NCBI GenBank assembly: GCA_027493055.1
Contig: JAPUDO010000048.1
Coordinates: 1 to 64,000, forward strand
Origin: Niabella sp.
GTDB lineage: Bacteria > Bacteroidota > Bacteroidia > Chitinophagales > Chitinophagaceae
Direction of reading: 5' to 3'
DNA: 64,000 bases
The number at the start of each line of letters is the position of its first letter. Within the stretch, counting starts at the first letter, position 1. Shown here piece by piece: positions 18,768 to 43,612 of the stretch. The notes under the pieces were generated by a model. The model was not told the origin of the DNA, searched no databases, and saw only the letters and a list, made by a program, of their open reading frames with translations. Position numbers and translations under genes: made by a program.

Positions 18768-18841
18768 GGTCCTATAGCTCAGTTGGTTAGAGCACCTGAC
18801 TCATAATCAGGTGGTCCCTGGTTCGAGCCCAGGTGGGACCA
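18768..18841 (+). tRNA. tRNA with CAT anticodon (Met or lysidine-Ile)
   Basis: A complete cloverleaf can be folded by hand. The acceptor arm GGTCCTA pairs with TGGGACC with one G-T pair, the D-arm is AGCTCAGTTGGTTAGAGCA-like, the anticodon stem CCTGA/TCAGG encloses the loop CTCATAA (anticodon CAT), and the T-arm is CCTGG TTCGAGC CCAGG. The discriminator base is A and CCA is not encoded. A CAT anticodon can belong to elongator tRNA-Met or to tRNA-Ile2 modified by TilS; I cannot separate these by eye. Its 3' end serves as the attachment site of the island that follows. Confidence 0.93.
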
Positions 18842-18842
18842 C
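18829..18842 (+). repeat. attL: 3' end of the tRNA gene
   Basis: The 14 bases CCAGGTGGGACCAC cover the end of the tRNA T-arm, the acceptor strand and one base beyond. An identical copy lies at 43545-43558 in the same orientation. Tyrosine integrases commonly recombine at tRNA 3' ends and leave such direct repeats, with the intact tRNA on one side. Confidence 0.85.
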
Positions 18843-18852
18843 TTAATAATCA

Positions 18853-18883
18853 AGCAGCTACATTAGATGTAGCTGCTTTTTTT
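18853..18883 (+). terminator. strong terminator just inside the island, after the tRNA
   Basis: AGCAGCTACAT and ATGTAGCTGCT form a perfect 11-bp stem with a TAG loop, followed by seven T. It ends tRNA transcription only 11 bases past the tRNA. Because it lies inside attL, it was brought by the island and replaces the terminator now found past attR. Confidence 0.9.
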
Positions 18884-19505
18884 ATGTCCCCTGATAAACA
18901 ATTGATAAACATTTTTACGGGATTTAAATCATGACCTGAAGCACATTAAAAAAAATGCTACAAATACCTGATAAAAATTATGTATAACTTTTTCTGAAAA
19001 TATTTAAATTGATGGGTTAAACTAGCTTAATAAGACAGGAGTCGTTGAATGTATAACTGTTTTAAAGTCTGTCGAAGTGCGGAAAAAATGCAAAGAATGG
19101 AGAAGCGACTATATACCAAACGACCTCAAAAATAACTAAGCTATCTTTCTTATATCAAACATCTGGATGTTAAGACGTCAGCCTTTTATTCACGCAGGCA
19201 AGCGGAAATTTTTCAAATATTGAAGCGTTGCCAGAGTTGGTAAAGTGATACAAAACAAAGGAGGTAATAGACTTAGAAGTCCTAACTGGCTAGGGCTTCT
19301 AATAAGGAGAAGCTTACAAAAAAGCCCACCGCTGTCTAAGCTGCAATCAAAATAAATAGCATTTTGGAAATTCATAATCACTTTTATAACCCGTTAAATT
19401 TTTAGATTTTACGTATATTGCAATATTATATAAGTGTGGTATGTAATACCGCTGTCTTGCACCTTATTGAGCTTCCATATAGAGTAAATATTTTAAATAA
19501 AAAGC
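18884..19505. other. non-coding left end of the island
   Basis: I find no supported gene in these 620 bases. The only frame of any length (minus strand, 19190-19381) has no motif and an odd composition. The stretch is A+T rich with many stops in all frames. Its last 100 bases should contain the promoter of the AraC gene. Confidence 0.5.
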
Positions 19506-20366
19506 GTGAAACCACTTTTAATGCGTCACTCTGAGCCAAGAAATGAGGCTTTCAAAGTTTGGTACAACGGAGGGCCATATCTACACAATCCTTGGCATTA
19601 CCATCCAGAATTTGAAATTACATTTATAAAAAAAGGAGACGGCATGCTTTTTATTGGAGATAAAATCGTTGATTATGCACAAAACGATATTTTTTTAATC
19701 GGTCCTAACCTGCCGCATGAGTGGCGCAGTAATATTAAAGAAGATCCTGATTTACTATCGGAAAGCTACTCTATACATTTCAATACCGATTTTTTGGGGG
19801 TAGATTTTTTTAATCTCTCTGAAACAAAACAGTTACAAAAACTTTTCGCTCAGGCTGACAAAGGTATAAAACTTAAATCTTCTACGTCAACCGAGCGAAT
19901 AAGCGATATGATTTCCTCGTTGATTAACAAAACGGATCTTTCCAAAATATATGCACTGTTACAAATCTTCGATCACATTATCTCATGCGAAATTATCTCG
20001 CCTATCACAAGTGAAGGCTTTGCAGCTTCTTTTAAAGGAAATGATGAAAGACTGCAAAATATATTTACCTATTTAATGAAGAATTTTACCAACGTAGTTA
20101 CAGTTGAGAACGCCGCAGCCATCGTAAATATGACACCTACTTCGTTCTGCCGTTTTTTTAAATCGAGAACACACAAATCTTTTGTAAACTACCTCCACGA
20201 CATCAGAGTCGGATATGCCTGCAAGCTACTACAAGAAGAAAAATACACGATCTCACAAGTTGCCTATCATTGCGGCTTTGAAAACCTATCGAACTTTAAT
20301 AAGCAATTCAAAAAGATAAAAAGTATTACGCCCAAAGAATACCTGCGGATATTTAAAAATACGTAG
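19506..20366 (+). CDS. AraC-family transcriptional regulator with cupin sensor
   Basis: The 286-residue protein has an N-terminal cupin-like sensing domain (about 10-110; WHYHPEFEITFIKKGDGMLFIGD and GPNLPHEW are typical) and a C-terminal pair of helix-turn-helix motifs (about 180-283; AAIVNMTPTSFCRFFKSRT and ISQVAYHCGFENLSNFNKQFK...TPKEY). The start is GTG 19506; ATG 19521 is a possible alternative that loses five residues. This kind of regulator binds a sugar or sugar acid in the cytoplasm. It is the only regulator on the island and is oriented toward the tail of the GH110-SusCD operon, so I infer it controls that operon and perhaps the dgo genes. The sequence shows no operator. Confidence 0.92.
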   Translation: MKPLLMRHSEPRNEAFKVWYNGGPYLHNPWHYHPEFEITFIKKGDGMLFIGDKIVDYAQNDIFLIGPNLPHEWRSNIKEDPDLLSESYSIHFNTDFLGVDFFNLSETKQLQKLFAQADKGIKLKSSTSTERISDMISSLINKTDLSKIYALLQIFDHIISCEIISPITSEGFAASFKGNDERLQNIFTYLMKNFTNVVTVENAAAIVNMTPTSFCRFFKSRTHKSFVNYLHDIRVGYACKLLQEEKYTISQVAYHCGFENLSNFNKQFKKIKSITPKEYLRIFKNT

Positions 20367-20529
20367 TTTTATTCTCATTCGCTTCTACGTCACATTAAAA
20401 CGTAAAAAGAAAGTTCCAAAATTAATTTCCTCCATAAAGAGGATTAATCTGCTCTCACAAACATATGGGTTTGGGGCTTTGGGCTTTAAACAAAACCGAA
20501 ACATTATAGTTTTACCCGAAAGGCTGCCA

Positions 20530-21930
20530 TTACCAGCTATCAGTTCTAAAAGGTATTACAGGTAATCCCTCCAGACTAAATAGATTTGTTTTGATAAAAT
20601 CTGTAAAAGCATACCTTACGGCTACTGGCTGTTTTACTTCTTCACTAATAACTTCTATATTATTTTTTACTATTGTTGCTCTGGCATCATGAAAAATCTT
20701 ATCTGACCCCGCTATCTGAAAGCCTACTACCTCTTCATCGTATGACGTGAAATTTGCGGGTGCATGATCAAAGCTAAGCACCGCCGTATCACTTCTGAAC
20801 ACCACACTTTTAAAGCTTGGACTTTTATAGGCTATTCCCTTCTTGTGATAAGCATCACCTAACGCCCAATACAGCAATCTGTTGCTTATAGCTGTCTTGT
20901 CCGGTGGATGAATGGTTTTATCACTGCCTTTATCCATACTTACTACCATACCACTAAGAGGCAGGGTAGTGAGTGCATTATATTGCGCTTCCCTTAGTAA
21001 AGCAGATTTATTTCTATTCGCTCCATATTTCCATGGTGCAATTTGTACGTAATAAAAATATAAGCTATCCCGTTGCCACAATTTGCGCCATCCTTCCACC
21101 ATAAGCCTCATTAGTTCTGTATACTCCGGGAATCTAACCACATTAGATTCCCCTTGATACCATAGAAATCCTTTTATTCCGAATCCTGCAATGGGGTTAA
21201 TCATACCATTGAATAGACAAGTAGTTTTCAGGCGATCGGCCGTATCATTTTTTCCGGGAATTGGCCTTTGTGTTTGACCAAAACGATGGACACTTTCTTG
21301 ATCCATCCATGATTCAATGGGAGTTCCTCCCCACGTGGACTCGATAATCCCCACAGGAACTTTTAAAATCTCATGCAACCTTTTAGCAAACTGGAACCCA
21401 ATAGCACTGAAATTTGCTGCAGATTCGGATGATGATATCTGCCATTGACCACCACAAGTATATTCCGGCACAACAGATGCAGATTTCTTAACCTGAAATA
21501 ACCTTAGCGAATTGTTGTCCGGCCCAGCTAAAATATCGTTTGAATTCAAAATCGGCTGGTTAGCAAATCCTTTCATGGGCATCTCCATATTTGATTGGCC
21601 AGAACACACCCAAACCTCTCCTATCAAGACGTTTGTCAATATGAGTTTTTCATCATCGATAATAACAATATCATACGGGCCACCTGCCGCAGGAGTCTTT
21701 AAAAGAACCCGCCATTCGCCCGCATTATTTGACTTCACCGTATAAGACTCTCTACTCCAGGAAGGCTTAATCTTTACAATGAAACTCGCTCGTGCCTTGC
21801 CCCAAATGGCCACTTCTGTCTGCTGTTGCAGTACCATACCGCTACCAAAAATCGCAGGTAGCTCAATCTTTGCTTCTGCGTTAAAAAATACTCCAACTGC
21901 AAACAAGCATAATAAAATGTATTTTTTCAT
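20530..21930 (-). CDS. sialate O-acetylesterase-like SGNH hydrolase
   Basis: Starting at ATG 21930 (MKKYILLCLFAVGVFFNAEA, signal peptide), this 466-residue protein matches the secreted carbohydrate esterase family annotated as sialate O-acetylesterase. Motifs are GSGMVLQQ, a beta-domain with GEWRV, EVWVCSGQSNMEMPM with the nucleophile serine in block I, ESTWGGTPIESWM, FLWYQGESN and a late DKTIHPPDK holding the catalytic histidine. It removes O-acetyl groups from sugars; activity on sialic acid is not implied, as plant-glycan acetyl esterases share this annotation. It is the last gene of the GH110-SusCD operon, 248 bases after the propeller gene, and would clear acetyl groups that block the exo-acting galactosidases. 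Confidence 0.88.
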   Translation of the reverse strand: MKKYILLCLFAVGVFFNAEAKIELPAIFGSGMVLQQQTEVAIWGKARASFIVKIKPSWSRESYTVKSNNAGEWRVLLKTPAAGGPYDIVIIDDEKLILTNVLIGEVWVCSGQSNMEMPMKGFANQPILNSNDILAGPDNNSLRLFQVKKSASVVPEYTCGGQWQISSSESAANFSAIGFQFAKRLHEILKVPVGIIESTWGGTPIESWMDQESVHRFGQTQRPIPGKNDTADRLKTTCLFNGMINPIAGFGIKGFLWYQGESNVVRFPEYTELMRLMVEGWRKLWQRDSLYFYYVQIAPWKYGANRNKSALLREAQYNALTTLPLSGMVVSMDKGSDKTIHPPDKTAISNRLLYWALGDAYHKKGIAYKSPSFKSVVFRSDTAVLSFDHAPANFTSYDEEVVGFQIAGSDKIFHDARATIVKNNIEVISEEVKQPVAVRYAFTDFIKTNLFSLEGLPVIPFRTDSW

Positions 21931-22178
21931 CGATAATAATTTTCTTTTTGATTGCATAATGAGATCAAAGTATGAAAACATTCGTGTTCTCGGGAAAAAG
22001 AATAGTATTTTTCTTATACTTTATTTCCTTTTTTCACTTAAATATTTAGAAGATCAATGCAGGTATTTACTTTCAAAATAAAAGTAAAATTATCAACTAT
22101 TTGACCGACTCACTTCCTTTACGTATCAAATTCATCTGGTTTAAAAAACCTTAAAGATCGAGATCTCAGAATGAAATC

Positions 22179-24356
22179 TTATTGCGCGATCTTATCTTTA
22201 TATAATGGGCTCATTTTCTTCTCCGCCTCGTAAGCCTTAATACCTACATTATCTACATTAGTGGAAAAGCCAGGACCTCCACCTCCAATATAACCATCAC
22301 TCCGACCAGTGTCATCGCGACTCACCCAAAAAGAATAAAATTTTCCATTTTTTACCTTAAACCGAAAACGCACGGGTTTATCATTAAGTATCGATAAATC
22401 GCTTTCTCCTTTCCATCCTATTTTCGAAATAGTCGTGTTACCTTTTACTCCTATACAGTTTTCAAAGGTGAAAGGAGCTATAGTTTTTCCTTCCATGTCA
22501 ACAACTTCCGCTATCAGCTCCCCCTGCGGCGCGTCAACATTTACAAACAAGTATTTGCCTGAGAATTTTACTGGTCGGGTAAGCAATAGCCCCGATGAAC
22601 CTGCGTCGGAATTTAAAGATATAAAGCCATCTCTCCGTAAAAATGCAAGACCTGTAGCTCCATTAGCATATAATCCTGAGTACATAGAATTTTTCACTCC
22701 TGGGTCGCCGAGTTTTACTTTTTCATCACCCGCAAAGCCAATATAGTAAAACCAAAGTTTATCCCCTCGTACTGTTAACAAATTACCCAATGATTGTACA
22801 TAGCCTCTGTCCCACGCTGGTTTATTTTCTGAATCGATAGCCATTTTCCGATCTGGTCTGTGCCAATGAAAACCATCTCTACTGTACGCAAAATTTAATC
22901 CTGTACTTTTAGGAAATCCTTTTGCCGCCAGTACTTCGTTATTGGGTCCATTTAAAATTTCAAAAAATCCCAGCATAATACTCTCGTAGGCAACAGCGTC
23001 AAGATTGTACAATTGTGCGTCTTCTTCACTCCCTGGATATGGCGGATCAAGCTTATCAGCTCTTGCCCAATCGTAGGGTTCGTCTGGCAACCATTGCATA
23101 CCTTTTAAATAATCATCCGATTCCCAGTAGGCTCTGGAACGCTTACCTTCAGGACTTAACCATCTCAGGCTGTATATCCATTTTTGCCTAAATGGATTAT
23201 AAAACATCGTACTTCTGTCTCCTGTTATGCCCATTTCATACATTTTACCAAAATCTGTTGCATTTCCTGTAACGAACGCTCTTGCCCTATCCCTAGCCGC
23301 TCCTCCACGAAGAAAAACTTTATACGTTTCATTCGGTTTGGTAGCATTATAATCTCTCACAACGGTCCAGGAATCTGGTTTAATCTCAGAAGGCAGTATC
23401 TGGTTGGTGCCAGGATTCAGAGAGAGGTTAGGTCTTTGCCAATGTAAGCCATCTTTACTAGTTGCATAGGCAAGAGTAGTTACCCATCCTGCTTCATACC
23501 ATAGTTCAAATAATTTTTTCTCTTCATTCCACCATAGACCTCCGCTTTTGGGGCCAGCTAACGCTAAATTATTCAGCCCTTTTTTCTCTATATCTGTTTC
23601 AGGTTTAAGAATAGGGTTGCCTTCGTATTTTTGCGGGTAATGGTATTCTATTTTTAAGTCGGTCTTCTCTATTAAAAAATCATCGACGAAGAGTTGTCGT
23701 CCCACATTGATATTGATGAGTTCGGGTTTGTGAGTTAAATAAGGCACATTCATAGGCCCATTGATTGACCAGTCAACTATTGGAGGCCAGTGCTTTGGCA
23801 ATCTTATTCCGTTGTAAAGCAACTCTCCTCCCGGTTCTAGTCTGTTAACCTCAAAGCCGGTAACTATCGACCATGCAGGTAGTGTTAGCTTTTCATCCTT
23901 TTTCAGGGATTTGCTAAAGACACTTACAGTATTTTCTGGCTTATCATAGAAAAGAATAAAGGGTGGCACACTATCTATTTTAGTAAAACCATTATCAAGT
24001 AGAGGCTTACTTCTGTCAACAGACTGGTTTGTCGGCGCAAGCACCAAAACATATCCAGCCTCTAAACAATGAATGGCGTATTCCTTATTAAATGGTAATT
24101 CAAAATACAATAATCCATCTAAAAGACTGGGAATTTCAATGTTCGCCTTAAATCCTCTATCTGAAAAAAGAGCCATAGACTTTAGTAACAGTCCATGTTT
24201 CGAGAACATCCTTATCAAAGACTCATTTGATCCCTGCAATTCTACTTTCGCTTTTTTAAACAGTGCGGGACGGCTTCCCGATCCATCTTGTGCATGCAAG
24301 TAACTTGACAAGCTTATAAAACTTATCATGATCCATATTTTCAAAATATTGCGCAT
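22179..24356 (-). CDS. secreted beta-propeller glycosidase-like protein, unclassified
   Basis: The 725-residue protein begins with a signal peptide (MRNILKIWIMISFISLSSYLHAQ). Residues about 30-200 are a beta-rich domain I do not recognise. From about 215 (VGRQLFVDDFLIE) to about 600 there is a five-bladed propeller with GH32/GH43-like repeats (SKDGLHWQRP, GGLWWNEEKKLFELWYEAG, YSRDGFHWHRPD, LWFYYIGFAG). The last 120 residues form a beta-sandwich (LLLTRPVKFSGKYLFVNVDAP, RFRFKVKNGKFYSFWV). Proteins with this VDDFLIE opening and GKYLFVN ending occur in Planctomycetes and Bacteroidota glycan loci and are, to my knowledge, not assigned to a characterised GH family. It follows susD by 27 bases in the operon. 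A glycosidase or glycan-binding role is inferred. Confidence 0.75.
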   Translation of the reverse strand: MRNILKIWIMISFISLSSYLHAQDGSGSRPALFKKAKVELQGSNESLIRMFSKHGLLLKSMALFSDRGFKANIEIPSLLDGLLYFELPFNKEYAIHCLEAGYVLVLAPTNQSVDRSKPLLDNGFTKIDSVPPFILFYDKPENTVSVFSKSLKKDEKLTLPAWSIVTGFEVNRLEPGGELLYNGIRLPKHWPPIVDWSINGPMNVPYLTHKPELININVGRQLFVDDFLIEKTDLKIEYHYPQKYEGNPILKPETDIEKKGLNNLALAGPKSGGLWWNEEKKLFELWYEAGWVTTLAYATSKDGLHWQRPNLSLNPGTNQILPSEIKPDSWTVVRDYNATKPNETYKVFLRGGAARDRARAFVTGNATDFGKMYEMGITGDRSTMFYNPFRQKWIYSLRWLSPEGKRSRAYWESDDYLKGMQWLPDEPYDWARADKLDPPYPGSEEDAQLYNLDAVAYESIMLGFFEILNGPNNEVLAAKGFPKSTGLNFAYSRDGFHWHRPDRKMAIDSENKPAWDRGYVQSLGNLLTVRGDKLWFYYIGFAGDEKVKLGDPGVKNSMYSGLYANGATGLAFLRRDGFISLNSDAGSSGLLLTRPVKFSGKYLFVNVDAPQGELIAEVVDMEGKTIAPFTFENCIGVKGNTTISKIGWKGESDLSILNDKPVRFRFKVKNGKFYSFWVSRDDTGRSDGYIGGGGPGFSTNVDNVGIKAYEAEKKMSPLYKDKIAQ

Positions 24357-24383
24357 AATTATTGACTTTTAGTTAACACTCTC

Positions 24384-26054
24384 TTAGTATCCAGGGTTAG
24401 GAACCAAGTTCGGATTCACATCTATCTCTTTTTTAGGGATGGGAAACCATATTTTGTAAGGGAAAAAATTTTCTTTTACCGTTTGCGCACCCAACATATT
24501 AAAGTAATAATGCGCCCCAACAGTAGCTCTATAGTCTGATGCAGAGGGAGTCTTCAATGATTGAATGACCGACTGCAGTTTTCCCATTCTAATCAAATCG
24601 AAACGACGCCAGTTTTCGCCACAAAGCTCACGGCTGCGTTCATCTAACAGTTCATCCATAAAATTTTCTTTTCTATAAGAACTATTGAGTTCGTTAAGCA
24701 AAACTGCGTCACCTCCCGCAGCCCGGCTTCTTACTATGCTTACCAACTCCCTTGCCCCTGACTCATCTCCTGTTTTAAATTTTGCTTCTGCATAAAGTAG
24801 TAATATATCTGCGTATCTTATTATAGGAAAGTTCAATAAACTCGCCAATCCAGGAACCCCCAATGCCGTTCTGTCTGCGCCGCTCGACTGCCGGAATTTG
24901 GACAAACAAATTTGAGTCCCTGAACTATTCACTGCATTAGGAATATAAAAGGTCGCGTTTTTTATTATTTCGGTTTTTGAAGAAGCGTTAATTATTCCTG
25001 TAATGTTATGTAAATACCGCAGATCTTTAAGGTTGTACTTATCTTTCAACTCCCCCATAGATCTCACGTGGCCCCTTCCACCCCCGCTTGCATCTGGTCC
25101 CTGTGGACTAACCCAATCAATAAGAAGATAAAAATCACTATTTCCGTTAAGCCCTGTTTGCACAACCATTGGGCATTCACTTGCCTGTTCGTCTCTTGTT
25201 ACATCAAGAAAATTATATCTATAAGATGGTAATAATATATATTGGCTATTTTGATATATTTCCTTTCCCAGCGCTTCAGATTTTTGATAGTAATCCATTG
25301 CGTTGACCCAATTAAAACTGTTAAGTTCGAAACTCAACTCGGCGCCCACATTGTTTTCTTTACAAGAGGCTAAATAGGTATACATTTTCAAAAGAAAACT
25401 AGCTGCAGTCCATTTGTTCACCCTACCTTGTTTTGCATTGCGATGATTTAGATTATCATAAGCGAAACGCAAATCATCCTCAACCTTCTGATAAACTATG
25501 TTCAAACTTTCTCTAGGTGCCTGAGGGTCATCGTTTATACCTGCTGGCATAGGAATAGCGCCAAACATCCAAGCTAGATAAATGCTGTAAAAGCCTCTAA
25601 AAAAGCGGGCTTCAGCCATAATTTGCTTCTTCCTTTCTTCGGATATATTGATCGCATTAACACGGTTAATAATATTATTAGCGCGATTAACGCCCACATA
25701 TAGAGAGAACCACGCATCAGAAATGAACGCATTCTCTGTGCTAAGCGCCCCGCTTGCTATATTAAGACGATCACCATTCAGCTTAGTAAAATCTGCTATT
25801 ACTTCATCTCCGAGCATTAGGATCCAGTTCAGCCGGCTTCCCCATAAACTCTGGCTTCCAACTCCCTGTATACTGGAAGCATTCATTACATCATATACGC
25901 CTGTCATTGCAAGCTCAATTCCTTCAGGAGTATACAAATCTTCCGGAGTAGAGAATGAATATACTTTTTCTTCCAAAAACTTGGAACAGGAATTATTAAC
26001 AATACAAATAGCTGCTAACACAGACGTTAATATTAATATTCTTAACTTTTTCAT
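24384..26054 (-). CDS. susD: SusD/RagB-family glycan-binding outer-membrane lipoprotein
   Basis: This 556-residue protein has a lipoprotein signal with the lipid-attachment cysteine near residue 23 (IVNNSCSKFLEE). SusD motifs are present: FLEEKVYSFSTPEDL, a long TPR-like helical region (RANNIINRVNAI, EARFFRGFYSIYLAWMFG), IVRSRAAGGD, LLDERSRELCGENWRRFDLIRMGK and the C-terminal NPNLVPNPGY. It caps the SusC barrel and binds oligosaccharide at the cell surface. It starts 32 bases after susC and shares its reading direction. Full length for the family. Confidence 0.95.
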   Translation of the reverse strand: MKKLRILILTSVLAAICIVNNSCSKFLEEKVYSFSTPEDLYTPEGIELAMTGVYDVMNASSIQGVGSQSLWGSRLNWILMLGDEVIADFTKLNGDRLNIASGALSTENAFISDAWFSLYVGVNRANNIINRVNAINISEERKKQIMAEARFFRGFYSIYLAWMFGAIPMPAGINDDPQAPRESLNIVYQKVEDDLRFAYDNLNHRNAKQGRVNKWTAASFLLKMYTYLASCKENNVGAELSFELNSFNWVNAMDYYQKSEALGKEIYQNSQYILLPSYRYNFLDVTRDEQASECPMVVQTGLNGNSDFYLLIDWVSPQGPDASGGGRGHVRSMGELKDKYNLKDLRYLHNITGIINASSKTEIIKNATFYIPNAVNSSGTQICLSKFRQSSGADRTALGVPGLASLLNFPIIRYADILLLYAEAKFKTGDESGARELVSIVRSRAAGGDAVLLNELNSSYRKENFMDELLDERSRELCGENWRRFDLIRMGKLQSVIQSLKTPSASDYRATVGAHYYFNMLGAQTVKENFFPYKIWFPIPKKEIDVNPNLVPNPGY

Positions 26055-26086
26055 ATGATAATAATTTTTGGGTATTTTGAAAAAAC

Positions 26087-29000
26087 TTAAAAAGAGACGT
26101 TTAAACCAATTGTATATACACGTGGGCGGGGATAAACGGTATCATCAAAACCGGTTATCAGTTTATTATGATAAGATACTTCTGGATCTAAGCCGCTATA
26201 TTTAGTCCACGTTATAAGATTCTCGGCGGTCAAATAAAGGTTAATATTTGATATTTTTAAGCGTCTGAGAGACGCACTTGAAAAGTTGTAGGCCAATCTC
26301 AAATTTTTCAGCCGCAAAAATGATCCATCTTCCGCATAGAAAGATGAGTTGGCATCCCTAAAACGGCCATCGTAAGATGGATATAGGTTTGAAGCATTGT
26401 CATTGGTCCAATGATTTCTGTAATAGTCGTAAGTCACATTATAATATGCATTATTCCCTTCGTAGCGATACCTACCTGTATTCAAAATTCCGTTACCCGA
26501 TGACCATTGCAGAAAAATATCTAATTCTATTTTTTTAAATTGAAAGCTATTGGAAAAGCCTCCAAAATGTTTAGGATTGCTGTTTGAAATAAATGTCTTA
26601 TCACCCCCAGGTGTGATCACACCATCTCCGTCAAGATCTTTAAACTTGATGTCGCCAGGTTTCACAACTACTCCGGAATAGGAAGGGATACCTGCAACCG
26701 GCGTTCCATCTGAATTGAAATCAGTTTTTTGATAAATACCATCAAATATAAATCCCCATCCCATTCCTATTGGATAACCTGGAATTAGCCGGCCGATCTC
26801 TTGGATGTGACCGCCTCTACCTGTCACCTTCAGGAATTCAGAGCTACCCAATGAAACCACCTTGTTTTTGTTAGTATTAATATTGAAACTGGTATTCCAG
26901 GAAAAGTTTTTTGTACTAATATTTCGCGTAGTAAAAGCAAATTCAATTCCTTCGTTATTTATCTGCCCAATATTCTGCCATTGACGGCTCGATCCCGTCT
27001 GGCTCGGTATACCGACTTGCAACAACATATCTGTCGTTTGCTTTTTATACCAATCCGCCACGATAGTAATACGGCCTTTAAACATCGATAGGTCAACCCC
27101 AAAATCCAGTTGAGAAGTTGTTTCCCATTTAAGGTTAGGGTTTGCTGCTTCTGCCGGCGCCAGCCCTAGATCCACCCCACCGGAGCTATTTCCATAATAA
27201 GCTCTGTCTGTTCTTGATAAAGACCGGTATTCGGGGATACGATCATTTCCCGTTAAACCATACGTAGCTCTTATTTTTAACTCATTTATAAAATTTATCT
27301 TCGAAAACAAATTCTCCTTATTTAGCTTCCAGGCAACTCCCCATGAAGGGAATAACGCATATTTATTATTCTGTCCAAATTTTGATGATCCATCCCTTCT
27401 TAAAGTAGCGGTAAGCAAATACTTTCCTTTAAAAGAGTAATTCAGTCTTCCGAATTGTGACAAACGGTTATTTTTGATTTTAGACGACTCCACCTTGTCA
27501 GGGAAGACACTTCCTTGATTTATATCGTAAACAGGATTGAAGCTTTGATTTTCAAAACCCGTTGCACGGGTTCCAAATGTACTGATGGAATATTGATTAA
27601 TTTCTATTCCTGCCATTGCATTTAATTGATGGTGCTGATTAAAGACTTTATTATATGTTAATGTATTTGAATTTTGTATAGCAATCGAATTCGAATTATC
27701 AATCATTGCTAATCCGTTGACTGGCGGGGCGCCCCAAGAAGTTATACTGGGAAACCACGCTTCGGCTTTAGAATAGCTTAATATCCCGCCACCATAAATA
27801 TTTAAGCTCAGGTTTTTATTAAAGTCATATTTCACACCCCCGTTTACCAACAATCGGGAAGTACCGATCTCCTTAAAAGCATTATTAATTATAGTAAGTG
27901 GATTTGATACTCCTCCATTTTGTGCAATATCCTCTTCTGATTCAACTCCTCTTAAAAGAGGTCTGTAAATAATAAAACTTTGCACAACCCCCGTGTAAGA
28001 ATTTGCTCCTAAAGCTGTGGCGGCAGCTCCGGAAGATATTGTATGAGAAAAATTAATATCGCCACTAATCGTTAGTTTTTTATTAAAAGTTGCACCCCCC
28101 TTAACAGCAGCCGTATATCGTTTAAAATTGTTGTTTTTCAAGATGCCGTCCTGATCCAGATATCCAAACGAAACGGCAACATTACTATTACCCGTTCCAG
28201 CAGTTAACCCAAGATTATAATTCTGAATGAGGCCTTTGTGCAGTAATTCATTTTGCCAGTTATGCACACTAAAATTATTAATATCACGAATTTTATCAGC
28301 AACGCCATCGTCATTAGTATCAACTCCCCAACTTAAACTTCTCGGATCCCTGGCGTACTTATAATCCAGATAGTCATTCCCTTCTAATACTTCTATTTTT
28401 TTTACCGGCTCTCCAAATCCCCAATATCCATTAAAGTTAATTTTAGGATTTTTTGTAGTTCCTTTTTTAGTAGTTACTATTATTACACCATTTGCAGCTC
28501 TGGAACCGTATATAGCACTTGCGGATGCATCTTTAAGTACTTCAATTGATTCTATATCTGACGGATTAATACTTGATAGAGGATTGTATTTAACATCGGC
28601 GTCGTATGAGTTTGAGGCCACCTCTCGCGTATTGACATCGATCTGAAGCCCATCAATAACATATAATGGCTGTGTACCGGCATCTACAGAATTACTACCT
28701 CGGATATTCACAGAAACCCCTGCTCCAGGCTCACCGGAATTAGACGTAACTTGTACTCCAGCAATTCTTCCTTGCATTGCTTCTATAAATGAAATTGCCC
28801 TTGATTTTGTTAAATCTTCATTTTTAATGGAAGCTATGGAGCCTGTTAAATCGCTCCTTCGTTGCTCACCATAACCTATTACTACTATTTCATCCAAGAC
28901 ATTGGCGGACTTTAACAAGATCACATTTACATTCTTTCTTCCATTTATCAACTCCACCCTGTTTTCCCAACCTATAGCAGTAAATAATAAAGTGTCATTA

Positions 29001-31079: not shown

Positions 31080-31108
31080 TATTCAGATTTTGTTTGGTTA
31101 TACTAATT

Positions 31109-33705: not shown

Positions 33706-34134
33706 ATGAGAGTAATAAAAATATTGGCCATAGTATCCTTCTTCGCCTCTCCTGTTTTTTCTCAAAGCAAAGACATTGTAGCGGTTGCTAGAAAAGTTGA
33801 AGCATTACGTCTTGCAATGATTAATGCAGACTCGAGCCAACTAAATAGCTTAGTAGTTTCCTGGTTAAGTTACGGGCATTCTACTAATGTCGTGGAAAAT
33901 AAAAAACAATTTATCACCTCACTTATTTCGGGCAAATATGATTTCACAGACATCAGCCTAAAAGAACAGTCAATAGTAATCAACAATAACATCGCAATTG
34001 TTCGCCACAAGCTTTTCGGCGAAACGCACGATAAGGATAAGCCACCTAGCCTTGCCAAACTAGGCGTATTACTGATATGGCAAAAGATAGACAAAAAATG
34101 GATGTTGGTGGCAAGACAAGCTTGTAAATTATAA
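33706..34134 (+). CDS. secreted NTF2-like (DUF4440/SnoaL) protein
   Basis: The 142-residue protein has a signal peptide (MRVIKILAIVSFFASPVFSQ) and one cone-shaped NTF2-like domain. VARKVEALRLAMINADSSQLNSLV, a middle strand pair (INNNIAIVRHKLFGETH) and a final strand LIWQKIDKKWMLVARQACKL are the usual DUF4440 layout. Such proteins bind small ligands or act as isomerases; nothing identifies a substrate. It is the first gene of the dgo operon, 44 bases before the kinase. Confidence 0.8.
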   Translation: MRVIKILAIVSFFASPVFSQSKDIVAVARKVEALRLAMINADSSQLNSLVVSWLSYGHSTNVVENKKQFITSLISGKYDFTDISLKEQSIVINNNIAIVRHKLFGETHDKDKPPSLAKLGVLLIWQKIDKKWMLVARQACKL

Positions 34135-34178
34135 GATCAAGTCAATAGAAATAGAAACCAAACCACCGAAAATTAAAT

Positions 34179-35186: not shown

Positions 35187-35206
35187 AAGCAAGTAAAATT
35201 TTATTA

Positions 35207-35830: not shown

Positions 35831-35840
35831 AATCAATCTA

Positions 35841-37133
35841 ATGCCTCAAAAAATATCCAATTATCGGTGGCTGATTGCTATCCTTCTTTTTTTCGCAACA
35901 ACTATTAACTATCTTGACAGACAGATAATAGGTCTTTTGAAACCTTTACTAGAGAACGAGTTTAATTGGAATGAAACAGATTTTGCTCATATTGTAATGG
36001 CATTTACAGCTGCGTATGCTATAGGACTACTACTAATAGGCAGGTATATAGATAAGGTAGGTACAAAAATAGGATATGCTGTTGCTGTTGTGATTTGGAG
36101 TATAGGAGGTATGCTTCATGCGCTGGCAAACAGTGTGGGGGGGTTTATAGTAATGCGCGTTATATTAGGTATCGGTGAGGCAGGTAATTACCCTGCTGCC
36201 ATGAAAGCTATTGCAGAATGGTTTCCTAAAAAAGAACGTGCTTTAGCAACGGGGCTAATGAACGCCGGTACCAGCATCGGAGTTGTGGTAGCATTGTTGT
36301 TAGCCCCATTCATACTCTCCCATTACCGATGGCAGGAAGTGTTTTGGATTACAGGTTCTTTGGGCTTTATCTGGTTGATTTTTTGGTTAATTTTTTATGC
36401 TCTGCCCGCCAGACAAAAAAGAATTACTGAATCGGAGCTAAGTTTAATCACGAATGATATTGCGAGCGACTCAAAGGAACAAAGAAATAAAAATATTTCA
36501 TGGACAGCATTATTTTCTATGAAAAACACTTGGGCTTTTATTGCAGGGAAGTTATTCATTGATCCTATATATTGGTTCTTTTTATTTTGGCTTCCTTCTT
36601 ATTTTTCATCCACTTTTAGTTTAGATCTTAAAAAACCCAGCCTTCCACTAATGATTATATATACTGCTACAACTTTAGGTAGTATTTTTGGCGGATTTCT
36701 TTCTTCCCGCCTGATAAAAAAAGGATGGCCAGTATTAAAAGCCCGCAAAACGGTGTTACTTGCGTTTGCTCTTATACAAACTTCTATCATTCTAGTGCAA
36801 TTTGTCTCTTCTATGTGGATGGCAGTTGCCTTGCTTAGCCTGGCTACCGCTGTCCATCAGGCATGGTCTACTAATATATTTACATTGTCATCCGACATGT
36901 TTCCTAAAGAGTATGTAAGTTCAGTAGTAGGAATAGGTGGTATGGCAGGCGCGATTGGCGGTATGTGTTTTCCAATTCTAGTAGGATACCTACTCGACCT
37001 TTTTAAAGCACAGGGAAATTTATCAGGCGGATACAATCTACTTTTTACAATTTGTGGTTGTATCTATTTAATGACCTGGTGTATTATTTATCTCCTTACT
37101 AAAAAGCCACAACAGCAAGATCAATTATCATAG
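35841..37133 (+). CDS. MFS transporter of the anion:cation symporter (sugar acid) type
   Basis: The 430-residue inner-membrane protein has 12 predicted helices. Motifs are INYLDRQIIGLLKPLL in the first helix, the MFS motif GRYIDKVGTKIGY and GIGEAGNYPAAMKAIAEWFPKKERALATGLMNAGTSIG, which is the signature of the hexuronate/galactonate (ExuT/DgoT) branch. It should import a sugar acid such as galactonate or a hexuronate by proton symport. It is the last gene of the dgo operon, which supports a galactonate-type substrate, though the exact sugar acid cannot be read from the sequence. Confidence 0.9.
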   Translation: MPQKISNYRWLIAILLFFATTINYLDRQIIGLLKPLLENEFNWNETDFAHIVMAFTAAYAIGLLLIGRYIDKVGTKIGYAVAVVIWSIGGMLHALANSVGGFIVMRVILGIGEAGNYPAAMKAIAEWFPKKERALATGLMNAGTSIGVVVALLLAPFILSHYRWQEVFWITGSLGFIWLIFWLIFYALPARQKRITESELSLITNDIASDSKEQRNKNISWTALFSMKNTWAFIAGKLFIDPIYWFFLFWLPSYFSSTFSLDLKKPSLPLMIIYTATTLGSIFGGFLSSRLIKKGWPVLKARKTVLLAFALIQTSIILVQFVSSMWMAVALLSLATAVHQAWSTNIFTLSSDMFPKEYVSSVVGIGGMAGAIGGMCFPILVGYLLDLFKAQGNLSGGYNLLFTICGCIYLMTWCIIYLLTKKPQQQDQLS

Positions 37134-37862: not shown

Positions 37863-38408
37863 TCATGCATAAATTTTAGTTAGTCTGAATAAAAAGTATT
37901 CAATTGATCTTACTCCTCTAAACTGACTTCTGAAGGCCTTGATTTTAGCGTTAAATGATTTTGCCGAGGCATTGGCAGACCGATTATCAAAGTAATTGAC
38001 AATAGTTTTGTAATGCAGCTGTATAGATCTTGAGATGGGATTAAAGGCTTTAAATCCGGCCTGTCGTACTTTTTCATGCCACTTAGCCGGCCATAGAGTG
38101 GTTTTATCGTAAACATTACTCAATTCTGTTGCCAGGTTTTAGGCCTTTTGTGAATCAGGATATCGTCCGAATAATAGCTTTGCCCCTTAGCTCTGGCCGG
38201 GTGTCCAATCTGCTGTTTTCTTGTACAATACATATCGGCTTCGTGCCAGTAGCTGCTTAAGCGTATCGCCATTTTCAAGTATCTCGGCTTTAAATTCCGA
38301 ACCGGTTTGTCTGGCTCTTTCAATTGCCTCGTTTTCTACATCCAGAAGACAACCTCTTTGCTGTATAAAGTGAGCGGATGCATAATAGCTAAAACGCCTC
38401 TTATGCAC
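37863..38408 (-). pseudogene. ISL3-like transposase remnant (C-terminal half, frameshifted)
   Basis: Three minus-strand frames join into one degraded transposase. Upstream (38408 down) reads EAIERARQ...EILENGDTLKQLLARSRYVLYKK-DWTP; a frameshifted middle (YYSDDILIHK region) follows, and then WHEKVRQAGFKAFNPISRSI and NYFDNRSANASAKSFNAKIKAFRSQFRGVRSIEYFLFRLTKIYA-type sequence to the stop. The NRS-NASAKSFNAKIKAFR motif is typical of ISL3-type DDE transposases of Bacteroidota. The N-terminal zinc-ribbon and first catalytic residues are missing. At least two frameshifts make it inactive. No terminal inverted repeats were found. Confidence 0.8.
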
Positions 38409-38773: not shown

Positions 38774-39973
38774 TTATTTCGCCAAATCCTCCAGTTTTCC
38801 AAACATGACCCTCTCTTTTCGCCCCTGTGTTACGCAAAGCCAAACTATTCCATTATGCTCTTTGAATGTGGGATATTGGAAACTTTCCCGCGATTCGAAA
38901 CGATACTTTCTTTCCCATGTAATACCGTCTTTCGACACATCAATGTTGAATACTGACCTGCCGCGTTCCTGCCAACCTAGATAATAAATTCCATTAAATT
39001 TATCAAATGTTGGTTTTGAAGAAGATCCATTAGGAACCCAATCCCTGTATTCTCCTTTTGTCCAGGTTTTACCATCTTTACTCGTTGAAAAGACATAGTT
39101 TCCTTTATCCTGACGAATAATGGCCAACCAAGTCCCATCCGGTAATCTATTTACTGCAGGTTCACAAAGCATAATATCTTGGGGTTCATTAAAATGACCA
39201 ACAACCTCGAACGTATCCATTTCCTTGTTTAGAATAGCGAGTCCATTTTGTCTTCCAGCATAATTATTAATAGCGACATAGGTTTTACCATCAAACTCTT
39301 TAAAGGAATCAAAAATATACAACCCATGCGTTTTTCTTGGCTTTGCGAATCCAAAACGGGCGGCATCATCATAAAAATGAATCGGCTGCATGTCAAAAGT
39401 GCCTTGCGCAGTTTTTAACTTGGCTTTGTATATGTGATTGGTAAATTTCTGTGTTTTGATATCGAAGTCCATGTACCATGTTTGCGATTGTCGTTTTTCT
39501 GGTTCTTCACTTGCGAAAAAGCATCTCAATGTTTTGTCATCCTTTTTGATAATCCGGGGCACAAAACAAGCTCCGCGTGGCAATGTGTCGTTCTCGAAGG
39601 GTTGTTCACCTCTAGCTATTGAAATAATGCGTTCCAGTTTCATTGTTTTCAAATTAACTATTGACATTGCAACGTAGATGAATGGCCAGTGTGACGATTC
39701 ACCCGATTTAATATCATTGACTTCAGCTACAATATAAGCACGATCTTCGTCAAAAGTCATGTCTGCATCGTGAGCTCCTCTAACCTGCCAGGCTGTAGTG
39801 TTTATTAGTTTATCCATTATCCGATCCGCCTTGGCTTTTGCATCCCACTTCTTTGGAATCAGAGCTCGTTTTGCCTGAGGCCATGCTTTATATGGGAGAA
39901 AAAAAGCCAGGGAGAGAAAAATTATTAATACAGGTAGTCTGTTTAATTTCAGGTTGTTTAAGGGATATTTCAT
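38774..39973 (-). CDS. exported sialidase-superfamily beta-propeller protein
   Basis: The 399-residue protein has an N-terminal hydrophobic signal (LPVLIIFLSLAFFLPYKAWPQA) and a propeller with BNR/Asp-box-like repeats (STSKDGKTWTKGEY, DVSKDGITWERKY) and related blades (LPDGTWLAIIRQDKGN, FNGIYYLGWQERG, HNGIVWLCVTQGRKE). The conserved blocks RGAHDADMTFDEDRAYIVAEVND and EPAVNRLPDGTWLA could form the active site. I cannot recognise the arginine triad of true sialidases, so it is best called sialidase-like; a lyase or glycosidase of another specificity is possible. It stands alone on the minus strand among decaying DNA of the island but is intact itself. Confidence 0.75.
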   Translation of the reverse strand: MKYPLNNLKLNRLPVLIIFLSLAFFLPYKAWPQAKRALIPKKWDAKAKADRIMDKLINTTAWQVRGAHDADMTFDEDRAYIVAEVNDIKSGESSHWPFIYVAMSIVNLKTMKLERIISIARGEQPFENDTLPRGACFVPRIIKKDDKTLRCFFASEEPEKRQSQTWYMDFDIKTQKFTNHIYKAKLKTAQGTFDMQPIHFYDDAARFGFAKPRKTHGLYIFDSFKEFDGKTYVAINNYAGRQNGLAILNKEMDTFEVVGHFNEPQDIMLCEPAVNRLPDGTWLAIIRQDKGNYVFSTSKDGKTWTKGEYRDWVPNGSSSKPTFDKFNGIYYLGWQERGRSVFNIDVSKDGITWERKYRFESRESFQYPTFKEHNGIVWLCVTQGRKERVMFGKLEDLAK

Positions 39974-40086: not shown

Positions 40087-40524
40087 TCAAGGTGGGACAA
40101 GTACAGATTTGTAGAGGATTTTAAAAGAAGGATTAATAGTACTTATGGAATTTTCGCAACTTATTTTTGATGTCACCCATTTTTCAAAAACATTATTCCC
40201 AATTATTCCTTCTTTTTCAATTATTTTTTCGAAACAATACCTCAGCTCGCTTTCTATTAAACTGGTAGTACACGTAGCCTTACAATTCTTGTTTTCACTA
40301 ATAATTTTTTCTACCCTTGTATACGTAATTTCCTTTACTCCATTTTTATATATAACTGAACCTTGCCAGATTGCTAATAAAGTGTTCCATGTTTTGTTCA
40401 CCATATAAAAACTGCTATCCATTTGTTGCTGCAATTCATAGGTTACAATTATCCTATCGTTTATTAACTGCATTGCTTTTCCTGCATACGGGACTAGTAA
40501 TAAATATAGCAGAACTCGAAACAT
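40087..40524 (-). pseudogene. decayed fragment of a third GH110 gene
   Basis: An open frame of 145 codons reads as a degraded copy of the C-terminal half of the GH110 copy 2 protein. VNKTWNTLLAIW corresponds to ENKTWNPSLEIR, the preceding ELQQQMDSSFYM to ELPKHLNGQFYV, and NNVFEKWVTSK to NNVFENCVTSG, followed by ISTINPSFKILYKS matching ITITPSIKPSGP. Short stretches between these matches have drifted or are shifted in frame, and the catalytic aspartate part is absent. There is a possible initiator and hydrophobic start, but the evidence favours a pseudogene over a new small protein. Confidence 0.65.
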
Positions 40525-41220
40525 ATCCGTTACTTCAGTAAAATATTTTTTCTATAAACCATGAAACAAAAAAAGAAATAGAATTGGAGCAACAATCTTT
40601 ACATACACTTTATACAGCGTATAACCGTGACAAACTCTCTCGATTAATTCAAAAGCTGATGACAAAGATCAATAATATAAAAAGAGCATTTATATAAGAT
40701 ATTCTCGAAACCTAATGATATTTTATCCTGTTGAACATTTTATAAATCCCTAACCCTACAATTAAGAACAAGTGTTCTCAAGACATAAATGGATTAGCAA
40801 TTGATAGAAAAGAACAACAAGAATATGTTGATTACTGGCATTTTTGCAATACCACTGTTTTAAATATTTAAATTCCTTGAATAGTGTTTTCAAACTTATC
40901 TGATCAACAGCCAAATAAAAAATGCATCCTATATAAAATATGGTTAATACAGCTAATAGTTTTTAAGAAAGTTTAATACAAATCGAGTAGTAGTCAAATA
41001 GTATAAAAAAAGAAACATGATGGCAAAACATATTTTTGCAATGATATTAGATCCGCCAATGCCTGCCGATCAGATAAAAATAATTTAACTATAATTTATT
41101 TAAAAGCCGACAACAAAAAATATGTATTTTCTTATAGTTTTTTTCTAAATGTTGCTCAAACCAAAATGGCAAACTTTTTTAACCATTACTGTAGTCTTTC
41201 CACTTTTAAAATCATCTTAT
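40525..41220. other. non-coding, A+T-rich stretch
   Basis: About 700 bases with no supported gene. Short frames lack motifs. I looked for the missing 5' half of the GH110 fragment on the minus strand and did not find it. An in-frame ATG at 41149 could extend the next gene by 24 residues. The promoter of the DUF1080 gene should be here. Confidence 0.45.
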
Positions 41221-42060
41221 ATGGCACGCTTATTTTTGTATTGTATACCTATAACATTTTTTTTCTTCTTCACCGAAAAAAAAAGCCAGAAATGGCATCA
41301 TCTATTTAATGGGAAAGATTTAAAAGGCTGGGATAGCTATCTCGATTATGAAACCGACAGCTTTGGTAAGCCGGTTTCTCCCACTAAGCTCGGCTTCAAT
41401 AACGATAGGTTAAAAGTATTTTCTGTTGTAATCGAAAATGAACTACCCGCCATACGTGTGTCAGGAAAAATTTGGGGAGGCTTATCCACTGTAGAAGAGT
41501 TTTCTGATTATCATTTACAGTTGCAGTTTAAATGGGGAAATACAGCTAATTGGGGTCATAAAAGAGGAAAGAAAAAAGATAGCGGATTGCTTTATCACGG
41601 GACAGGAGAACATGGAGCAAACAACGAGCCCTGGCTAAAATCACAGGAGTTTCAGATCGAGGAAAATAATACAGGAGATTACTGGGGTGTAGCAGGAGCT
41701 GGAGTAGAGATCAATACTATTAATACCGTTGGTCGAAAATACATATACAACCCAACAGGAACAGTTACTACTTTTAGCCAATCCAGTTATGCAGGTAGGC
41801 ACTGTGAAAAGATAGTTGACGCAGAGTACCCAATTGGGCAATGGAACACATTAGACTTGTATTGTTTAAAAGGAATAAGCGTACATGTTGTAAATGGTAA
41901 GACTGTAATGGTCTTAAAAAATTCCTTTCAAGAGAAGGATGGGTTAAAAAAGCCTCTAACGTCAGGAAAGTTACAATTGCAATCTGAGGGAGCCGAATTA
42001 TTCTACAGAAATATCCGGATACGTTCAATTAGTGAAATCCCGCCAGAGATATTAAATTAA
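41221..42060 (+). CDS. secreted DUF1080 (3-keto-disaccharide hydrolase-like) protein
   Basis: I start at ATG 41221 (MARLFLYCIPITFFFFFTEKK), which gives a clean signal peptide; ATG 41149 adds 24 residues. The jelly-roll domain PF06439 is complete: WHHLFNGKDLKGWDSYL, IRVSGKIWGGLSTVEEFSDYHLQLQFKWG, KKDSGLLYHGTGEHG, SQEFQIEENNTGDYWGV, PIGQWNTLDLYCL, HVVNGKTVMVLKNS and SGKLQLQSEGAELFYRNIRIR. The fold resembles concanavalin-like lectins; some relatives cleave 3-keto-glycosides by elimination or hydrolysis. No 3-keto-forming dehydrogenase is encoded on the island, so binding or hydrolysis of another glycan is also possible. It stands alone on the plus strand. Confidence 0.88.
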   Translation: MARLFLYCIPITFFFFFTEKKSQKWHHLFNGKDLKGWDSYLDYETDSFGKPVSPTKLGFNNDRLKVFSVVIENELPAIRVSGKIWGGLSTVEEFSDYHLQLQFKWGNTANWGHKRGKKKDSGLLYHGTGEHGANNEPWLKSQEFQIEENNTGDYWGVAGAGVEINTINTVGRKYIYNPTGTVTTFSQSSYAGRHCEKIVDAEYPIGQWNTLDLYCLKGISVHVVNGKTVMVLKNSFQEKDGLKKPLTSGKLQLQSEGAELFYRNIRIRSISEIPPEILN

Positions 42061-42370: not shown

Positions 42371-42813
42371 CTAAAACCTCATATCAAGGGCCAGGAATAA
42401 ATTACATTACATGCTACAGCGTTAAAAATTATAGAGAAACAAAGAAAAAACTTCAACACTATGCTGTACAACCTGAATTGGTATTTGATTTGCCTACTGC
42501 TAATGGTGCGAATAAGGCTCTTGGTGAGTGGACAAAAGCTGCAGGGATAGAAAAAAAGTTTACCTGGTCTTGCGCAAGGTTGAGCTTTCCCATCTTGTTG
42601 CAGGATGAAAATGTTGATTTAGCAACAGTTGCCTATCTCTTAGGACATACAACAACAAAACAGGTTAGCAAGGCATATAAAAGACATCGACCAAAAGATC
42701 AAGTAGCAACGATAAGTAAACTGCCAAGTGAGCAAAAGAAGGCGGTCAATTCTGCAAAAGTTGTAACATGCTATACTGGGGTAATTGGGGCTTACTTTAT
42801 GGAGACATTTTGA
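42371..42813 (+). pseudogene. tyrosine integrase, C-terminal catalytic fragment
   Basis: A plus-strand fragment encodes the end of a Bacteroidota phage-type integrase. After an in-frame TAA (42398) and a frameshift in an A-rich run near 42,445, the frame reads LPTANGANKALGEWTKAAGIEKKFTW-SCARLSFPILLQDENVDLATVAYLLGHTTTKQVSKAYKRH. These hold the box II arginine (CAR-LSF; the usual His/Lys of the box is replaced by L), the LLGHT motif and the active-site tyrosine region (AYKRH in place of the usual Y-H). The first catalytic arginine region is missing. It points toward the minus-strand N-terminal fragment, so the gene is broken. Confidence 0.75.
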
Positions 42814-43367
42814 TATTAAACTTCTTAGCATCGTTGAATATTTTCCGGATATATTTCATGTCGTTGTGGAGAGTATTCGTCTTATTACCTAACGCCCTCA
42901 GATGCTGCTCATATCTTTCCAAAAACGCTGGCGTAATGTCGGTAAGTGGTAATTTCCGGTTGTTGTTATATTCTTTTAGCTTATTTATGATAGCTTTATT
43001 TTTATCATAAGTGCCAATTTTTCCTGCTGTATAGTTTTTAGCATTTATGTTAGTTGAATACTCAAAAAATCAACAGGCGGCTTCCCAAATATTTCATATT
43101 TTAAAGTTTTCCCAGTTGGAATTTTTTCTTGCGTTTCAACCTCTAACAGCCGCGCATGTACTCTGTCATTTTTGCGCTAAGCCGTCCGGAATTCTTATGA
43201 TTCGTTTTAACCCTTTTGTTTTTTACATCCCATTCCGATTCCCTTATGTATTGACCAGGAGAGATGTAACTTGATTTTCTGTTTTTGGTGATTCTGAAAT
43301 GAATGGGGTTTAAACCCTGATTGTTTAATTTGTCTTTTCTCAATGTTAATTTAATACTGCTTGCCAT
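42814..43367 (-). pseudogene. tyrosine integrase, N-terminal half with frameshifts
   Basis: From ATG 43367 the minus strand encodes an arm-DNA-binding domain (MASSIKLTLRKDKLNNQGLNP, ISPGQYIRESEWDVKNKRVK, SGRLSAKMTEY). After a frameshift near 43,140 it continues with VETQEKIPTGKTLKYEIFG. After another it reads EYSTNINAKNYTAGKIGTYDKNKAI and then KLPLTDITPAFLERYEQHLRALGNKTNTLHNDMKYIRKIFNDAKKFN, the SAM-like core-binding domain. It ends where the oppositely oriented catalytic fragment begins. The gene starts 180 bases inside attR, the normal position for the integrase of an island. Confidence 0.8.
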
Positions 43368-43401
43368 AATTTTTTACAGGGATTTGACATATACCGTACC
43401 A

Positions 43402-43442
43402 GTAAACGGGGACAACAATGGGGACAACATTCATGTTATCCG
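43402..43442. repeat. possible integrase arm-type sites
   Basis: GGGGACAACA occurs twice in tandem (43408-43417 and 43420-43429) between the integrase start and attR. A diverged third copy of the block, GTAAAC..AGGAACAACATTTGGGTTAT, lies at 43621-43650, just outside attR. Repeated motifs near the attachment site are expected for integrase arm binding. Confidence 0.5.
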
Positions 43443-43544
43443 TTTACTTTCCGATACATTTAATTACGTTTAAATAATTTGTTAATTTCTCTAAATCAGT
43501 GTTTTAGAGTGTAATCAAATGTTTTCCTATGTTATCATGACAGT

Positions 43545-43558
43545 CCAGGTGGGACCAC
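43545..43558 (+). repeat. attR: duplicated tRNA 3' end
   Basis: CCAGGTGGGACCAC is identical to the 3' end of the CAT-anticodon tRNA at 18829-18842 and in the same orientation. No tRNA body precedes it, so this is the distal attachment site of the island. Confidence 0.85.
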
Positions 43559-43564
43559 AACATT

Positions 43565-43612
43565 AAGCCTTACATTTTTGATTTTTAATCAGTTATGTGA
43601 GGCTTTTTTTTT
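43565..43612 (+). terminator. terminator past attR, probably the original tRNA terminator
   Basis: AAGCCTTACAT (43565-43575) pairs with ATGTGAGGCTT (43595-43605), with one wobble, and a run of nine T follows. No plus-strand gene ends here now. In the uninterrupted chromosome this hairpin would sit directly behind the tRNA, so it supports the island model. Nine G follow the nine T, an unusual homopolymer junction. Confidence 0.75.

Follow-up and report, generated by a model that had tools for sequence, protein, structure and literature searches.

A 24.7-kb, A+T-rich segment carrying a glycan-use locus lies directly behind a tRNA-Met gene in a Niabella sp. genome and ends at a second copy of the tRNA 3' end. 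The window in which it was analysed comprises 64,000 nucleotides, i.e., positions 1 to 64,000 of contig 48 (JAPUDO010000048.1) of assembly GCA_027493055.1, a genome of 5,747,285 bases in 131 contigs. The original prediction described the segment as one genomic island integrated in the tRNA gene. Its horizontal, tRNA-associated nature and its cargo are upheld here, but a single island bounded by an attL and an attR is not supported, as the putative integrase arm units at its two ends differ and the end of another element lies beyond the second repeat. On the best reading of the sequence, several mobile-element ends are stacked at the site instead of one clean insertion, and the arrangement would probably be due to elements that accreted serially at a tRNA-Met hotspot and decayed there, with the glycan-use locus as cargo. 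There is good support for at least two insertions; a third is likely, but rests on short motifs.

The only tRNA that ARAGORN detects in the window is an intact tRNA-Met(CAT) at 18768–18842 on the plus strand, the presumed integration target. As predicted, its last 14 bp (18829–18842; CCAGGTGGGACCAC) recur exactly at 43545–43558; the 5.75-Mb genome holds exactly these two copies and none of the reversed control pattern, and a second copy would be expected by chance about 0.04 times by calculation. The repeat lengthens to 17 bp with one mismatch, such that core copy 1 is the last 14 to 17 bp of the tRNA gene and core copy 2 spans 43542–43558 on the plus strand. A third core-like place, with two mismatches, lies within the SusC gene at 26607–26620.

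The predicted A+T richness of the interior holds as well, with 36.6% G+C inside the island against 43.7% in the left flank and 42.5% in the right. The mean G+C at third codon positions of 14 island open reading frames (ORFs) is 0.336, compared to 0.455 for 12 left-hand ORFs (p=4e-5), 0.432 for 15 right-hand ORFs (p=9e-5), and 0.406 for the seven nearest right-hand ORFs (p=0.01). While the island thus differs from its flanks, G+C to the right of 43558 stays at about 40–41% until about 56 kb, and composition is uneven across the genome, four further stretches having 38–41% G+C; it therefore supports a foreign origin and not the right-hand boundary. Together with the tRNA-derived repeat, the integrase remnants described below, and the lack of close cargo matches at Niabella tRNA-Met loci, it supports the view that the region was acquired horizontally, in association with the tRNA gene and with its stated cargo.

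Three short modules with paired repeats occupy this site: one behind the tRNA, one between the integrase remnants and core 2, and one beyond core 2. The left module, P'X (18843–18913, plus strand), consists of a terminator hairpin (about 18852–18883) and two TGATAAACA units of period 11 that start at 18891/18892, roughly 50 bp past the end of the tRNA gene. The integrase-side pair, P (43409–43430, minus strand), is formed by two TGTTGTCCCC units of period 12. The third module, P'Y (43559–43640, plus strand), again combines a terminator hairpin with a pair of period 11, from 43619. The second core copy (from 43545) is thus flanked by element-end modules to its left (P, 43409) and to its right (P'Y, arms at 43619), the arrangement expected of accretion. 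We regard the paired repeats as putative integrase arm sites.

A broad regular expression for such arm pairs matches three times in the window (18892, 43409, and 43619, all on the minus strand). It matches once in 1.33 Mb from 72 loci of other genera, selected for relatives of the metallo-β-lactamase (MBL)-fold gene that forms the right chromosomal flank (43665–44489, minus strand; about 25 bp separate its stop from the P'Y arms). In a second set of 1.03 Mb, Niabella tRNA-Met and MBL regions included, there are four matches, three behind tRNA-Met (two overlapping ones in genome G011 and one in N. drilacis, G014) and one elsewhere (L091). A Y-arm pattern composed from the window finds only 43409 and 43619 in the same genome and occurs in 4 of 334 family genomes, that genome included; the search constitutes a test on places outside those used to compose the pattern. 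In the other three genomes, the pattern lies 57 bp behind a tRNA-Asp (G110), 47 bp behind a tRNA-Cys with a second occurrence 6.5 kb further along, next to an integrase-like ORF of 517 aa (G296), and at a position that has no tRNA nearby and resembles coding sequence (G333).

The terminator beyond core 2 had been taken for an orphaned terminator of the host tRNA, an assignment that we revise. For the stretch 43559–43640, alignment to the sequence that directly follows tRNA-Met gives 77% over 83 bp in N. drilacis and 83% over 59 bp in the Niabella metagenome-assembled genome BIN29 (G004); its hairpin-plus-arms form is like that of the G110 module at tRNA-Asp. No similar sequence was seen within 200 bp downstream of 13 MBL genes, where the regular expression has no match either. 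Given these homologies and the MBL downstream regions that lack it, the module is most simply an element end that formerly stood behind the tRNA, not a freed host terminator.

The left module has its 9/10 pair starting about 49 bp behind the tRNA, and a pair of at least 9/10 arises somewhere in 113 of 20,000 random 75-bp windows. Its layout recurs at a tRNA-Asn element with an integrase in N. drilacis and at the tRNA-Met gene of G013, each with a similar hairpin and arms. By eye, a like hairpin also follows tRNA-Met in seven other Niabella genomes, and we considered a native origin of the left terminator; this was dropped because the N. drilacis integrase element has a like hairpin with arms and the G013 arms match those at an integrase with an open frame.

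A broken integrase had been placed just inside core 2. Remnants do lie there, but judging from their relatives they are parts of two different integrases, of distinct subfamilies and on opposite strands, and not of one gene. Relatives of the C-terminal catalytic piece (42478–42813, plus strand) occur in 60 of 195 family genomes, the present one among them; in 10 of 11 relatives read, the integrase lies downstream of a tRNA-Leu gene, whose end is 143 to 440 bp before it, and TGTTTACCC is found in none of the 11 loci. The N-terminal SAM-like piece (PF13102, 42818–43069) is broken across more than one frame, from 42815 to about 43371 on the minus strand, and has relatives in 32 of the 195 genomes, again own included. 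In eight of nine of its loci read, a paired repeat of the TGTTTACCCC kind stands shortly 5' of the integrase, L215 being without one. It is the tRNA-Leu context, the absence of TGTTTACCC from the loci of the plus-strand relatives, and the fact that the best relatives of the two pieces are in different genomes that lead us to assign them to different integrases; the single integrase gene, intact or broken, that one element would have left is thus not what the site contains. At the 11 loci read for this tRNA-Leu-adjoining subfamily (L255–L262, L264, L267, L268), most integrases carry SCARLSF at the position where integrases usually have HxxR.

The ends of elements in relatives follow a common layout. 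The tRNA is followed by the element's own terminator and, at a distance of about 50 bp, by a paired arm repeat of approximately 11 bp (P'); then come the cargo, the integrase, another arm pair (P), and the core. With one regular expression applied to 11 regions, arm pairs were found at both ends of three, each with a tRNA at one end (tRNA-Arg in G085, tRNA-Lys in G178, and tRNA-Asn on contig C23 of N. drilacis), on the integrase side only of four, and at neither end of four. Both ends were also read at the tRNA-Cys of G296 (with the 517-aa ORF at the second pair), on contig C92 of the present genome and in G156 (each located via the unit of its first end), and at the tRNA-Met of G013, across two contigs. 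The tRNA-end and integrase-end units match in all seven of these elements, with 10/10 identity for at least one pair in six. In the window, the left arms agree with P at only 6/10 positions, while the right-hand arms agree with P at 8 and 9/10; the matching units expected at the two ends of a single element are thus absent.

Within the genus Niabella, where a scan of named genomes places the relatives, the exact core is present in 16 of 17 genomes, own included, and single-copy in 13; N. defluvii (G002) has a core with two mismatches. Sixteen Niabella tRNA-Met neighbourhoods were compared, each of 20 kb save those of G013, G014, and G016, which span 5 to 11 kb. As far as fetched, none contains the MBL gene or a close cargo match. 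Six have SusC-type matches, at 25 to 32% identity, and two have weak MFS or AraC matches; the SusC-type ones were given no weight, as they are also present in 2 of 13 MBL regions. Conversely, a search anchored on the MBL gene covered 59 genomes, own included, and in the 13 Niabella neighbourhoods fetched (13–20 kb) the core never lies beside the MBL gene, being located elsewhere. The uninterrupted tRNA-terminator-MBL gene order, which the original prediction had proposed to look for in related genomes, was therefore not found. At one such locus (L097, N. ginsengisoli, G001), another CAT tRNA, which lacks the core, is located about 8 kb away from the MBL gene. The upstream gene P0001 was unhelpful as an anchor, matching 8 of the 17 genus genomes (own included), mostly weakly.

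We propose the following model. Tyrosine-recombinase elements would have hit the tRNA-Met gene repeatedly and site-specifically, each restoring the tRNA 3' end and bringing its own terminator and paired P' arms behind it, with the other element end carrying the integrase, the second arm pair P, and a core copy. The P'Y element would have inserted first. At least one later element would then have inserted between the tRNA and P'Y, leaving P'Y on the far side of the second core. Because the P'X and P arm units differ, two elements (X and Y parts) have probably been fused into the 24.7 kb, with deletion of the join. The body of the P'Y element would have been lost up to the MBL gene.

A number of observations count against this model. 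An intermediate state was seen in no relative, and the island contains no further exact core or PF13102 piece. The arm role of the paired repeats is drawn from sequence, and the broad regular expression was composed after the window had been inspected. Elsewhere among the 334 genomes the X-arm pattern occurs only in G074, where the fetched locus has no tRNA, and G011 gives only a near match to the X arms; as the X pattern thus comes without another element, the left module rests on its layout. The left arms also resemble those of the right module, at 7 and 8/10, and the 6/10 contrast with P consequently rests on short, perhaps decayed motifs. Among 89 distinct tRNA contexts, the window's included, a pair of at least 9/10 lies at +25 to +100 in 12, compared to one upstream and none at random places (23, 10, and 5, respectively, for at least 8/10); these counts speak for the model, but come from a non-random sample, as the loci had been fetched largely for their tRNAs or integrases. 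As to the comparison of ends, 8 of the 11 regions are incomplete (an integrase-side pair only, or none), the second ends on C92 and in G156 were found by searching with the first-end unit, G156 has one unit only at its tRNA end, the G013 ends sit on two contigs, and the second arm pairs of G007 C1 and G001 C4 could not be read.

The strongest competitor to serial accretion is a single insertion, in which one element would have its ends at 18843 and 43544 and the module to the right of core 2 would be former tRNA-downstream sequence. This would accommodate the 14-bp repeat, the low G+C, and an integrase remnant of fitting place and orientation, and with an element end already behind the tRNA, as in N. 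drilacis and BIN29, one later insertion would suffice. We nonetheless consider it unlikely: the module to the right of core 2 represents an element end in its own right, so that at least one earlier insertion is required, and the left and integrase-side units differ, though they are matched in the seven elements read at both ends. Alternatively, 43409–43640 could be the entire attP (P-core-P') from an element that had been a circle and reached the chromosome here by some other route, the island not having been inserted at the tRNA at all. P and P'Y do flank the core with similar units, at spacings seen in both arms of relatives' elements; nevertheless, a non-site-specific entry would have had to occur within 25 kb of the targeted tRNA, and the left module has an element-end layout too, which renders this scenario improbable. 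That the repeat arose by chance in an ordinary A+T-rich chromosomal locus is hardly credible, for even in a genome of such variable composition (the four stretches of 38–41% G+C) the exact repeat is confined to this site, three arm pairs stand at the predicted places, integrase relics are present, and no close cargo matches were found at the 16 other Niabella tRNA-Met loci as fetched.

Further putative tRNA-associated element ends were noted in this genome and in G013. On contig C92 (about 20181–42040; L238, L239), a second tRNA element adjoins a tRNA-Asn gene; it has an integrase ORF of 471 aa, and either end bears TTTGCCAGTA units. Since its far side also has the hairpin and one TTTGAGACAT unit, this element may be stacked too and not a plain insertion. 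On contig C104 (L359), a paired TTTGCCATAC repeat and a similar terminator lie behind a tRNA-Lys gene (6957–7030 of the locus, minus strand), possibly a third element end. In G013 (contig C208; L253, 5255–7000), an open 420-aa integrase frame, a TTTGAGACAT arm pair, and about 44 bp of a tRNA-Met 3' end are followed by the start of a GIY-YIG-like ORF, i.e., the end of a tRNA-Met-targeting element whose integrase frame is unbroken.

The tRNA-Met site also carries other repeats in the genus. In N. drilacis, a partial tRNA-like copy lies directly upstream of the intact tRNA-Met (L048). Behind tRNA-Met in N. defluvii (L085, about 1520–2760) and N. hibiscisoli (G012; L082, about 1570–3350) are tandem units, each closing with a copy of the 3' half of the tRNA into which a TGCCGATAGCTATCGGCA palindrome is inserted. 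N. defluvii has three units of 384–386 bp with a GIY-YIG ORF (PF01541, 9e-10, in the one tested), and N. hibiscisoli has seven short units of 163–165 bp and one of 554 bp. These look like a tiny GIY-YIG cassette amplified at the tRNA gene; among the papers listed by a literature search, none appears to concern such a cassette.

The cargo named in the original prediction, i.e., GH110, SusC/SusD, DgoK and DgoA, and a major facilitator superfamily (MFS) transporter, is confirmed by Pfam. On the minus strand, SusD (24384–26054) and SusC (26087–29218) are adjacent to two glycoside hydrolases of family GH110 (29367–31079 and 31109–33121), the gene content of a polysaccharide-utilization locus (PUL). 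The best solved relative of the former GH110 is 7jw4 (PdGH110B), and those of the latter are 8pvs and 9i4f. To the left of these lie an AraC-type regulator (19506–20366, plus), a SASA-type carbohydrate acetylesterase (20530–21981, minus), and a 725-aa protein (22179–24356, minus) that matches nothing in Pfam, NCBIfam, or the PDB at the thresholds applied and whose structure prediction from a seven-sequence alignment was unusable (mean predicted local distance difference test score of 44). On the plus strand follow a DUF4440 protein (33706–34134), a 2-keto-3-deoxygalactonate (KDGal) kinase of the DgoK family (34179–35186), an aldolase (35207–35830) that fits both the 2-keto-3-deoxy-6-phosphogluconate (KDPG) and the 2-keto-3-deoxy-6-phosphogalactonate (KDPGal) type at family level, and the MFS transporter (35841–37133), for which the best NCBIfam model is the D-galactonate transporter subfamily, at 244 bits of a 395-bit cut-off. 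Toward core 2 are an ISL3-type transposase remnant (37866–38138, minus; PF01610, 2.7e-13), a BNR-repeat-like protein below Pfam's cut-off (38774–39973, minus), a 145-aa ORF without a Pfam match (40087–40524, minus), and a protein with a 3-keto-disaccharide hydrolase domain (41149–42060, plus).

From 19506 to 37133, the cargo would therefore constitute a glycan-use locus in which GH110 α-1,3-galactosidases and SusC/SusD uptake act on a substrate that we infer from the gene content, while the KDGal kinase, the aldolase, and a sugar-acid-type permease serve the product. With both enzymes present at family level and a permease of the right superfamily, a galactonate route is suggested, which we take to be the D-galactonate pathway known under the name DeLey-Doudoroff. 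Among the 15 island ORFs run in Pfam, there was no galactose dehydrogenase or galactonate dehydratase (the rest of the genome was not searched), no relaxase or conjugation/transfer gene of the kind that an integrative and conjugative element (ICE) or integrative and mobilizable element (IME) would carry, and no sulfatase. Both GH110 proteins resemble PdGH110B in family membership and, by alignment, in retaining the three Asp positions named as catalytic in PMC7939477; the lack of a sulfatase sets the island apart from the PdGH110B case as presented there, and a carrageenan role is thus not indicated.

GH110 matches (E≤1e-20) number 62, in 48 of 394 family genomes, own included; for the longer GH110, the top-scoring family match has 37% identity and one partial match 39%. 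The 725-aa protein has 10 matches in 9 of the 394 genomes (eight besides this one). The identical cargo set, which the original prediction had proposed to look for elsewhere, was found in none of 27 neighbourhoods compared, some of which end early at contig ends; 20 of these cover 21 of the 62 GH110 matches, and for the 725-aa protein seven cover 8 of its 10 matches. Among the 27, SusC, SusD, and GH110 are consecutive only in G133. Outside the island, the left flank (1579–8276) encodes a GH43 and a hybrid two-component regulator, and the right flank (54198–63937) three GH32, one SusD, and one partial SusC-like ORF.

Accretion at tRNA genes is already known, and the present case is instructive. 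PMC5704250 describes the accretion of ICEs, IMEs, and cis-mobilizable elements (CIMEs) at the 3' ends of tRNA or other genes, with decayed members and chimeric att sites. The Niabella site resembles those systems in that insertions stack at an att site adjoining the target gene, members retain their att ends as they decay, att junctions are chimeric, and different integrases share one target; it differs in having no relaxase or transfer gene among its 15 analysed ORFs, its members being known only from end modules and integrase pieces. PULs on mobile elements of Bacteroidota are reported in PMC8845570 and PMC6907783, the latter counting 47 SusC/SusD loci on such elements and describing an island composed of two tandem ICEs. 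Our segment likewise places SusC/SusD and glycoside hydrolases on laterally acquired DNA; unlike those elements, which are from gut species, it is in Niabella, combines GH110 with a DgoK/aldolase set, and has no transfer genes among these ORFs. Literature searches returned nothing on topic for genomic islands of Niabella and only Bifidobacterium prophages for arm-type sites.

A more tentative possibility, which we would not favour at present, is that a portable tRNA terminator is combined with an element-specific arm code (TGATAAACA, GGGACAACA, GGGTAAACA, TTGCAAACA, TTTGCCAGTA, and TTTGAGACAT), each integrase reading only its own unit such that unrelated elements could stack at one tRNA and excise independently. 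If so, diversification of the units would be the trait that allows accretion at a shared tRNA core. Island limits are often drawn from a tRNA and one repeat, a rule that here yields a misleading single island, whereas the arm modules, once read, reveal several layers. The signature of a terminator and a paired 11–12-bp repeat about 50 bp behind the tRNA, matched at the integrase, tells element ends from host DNA, and could thus be used to split and order stacked islands across Bacteroidota, including those that carry glycan-use loci.

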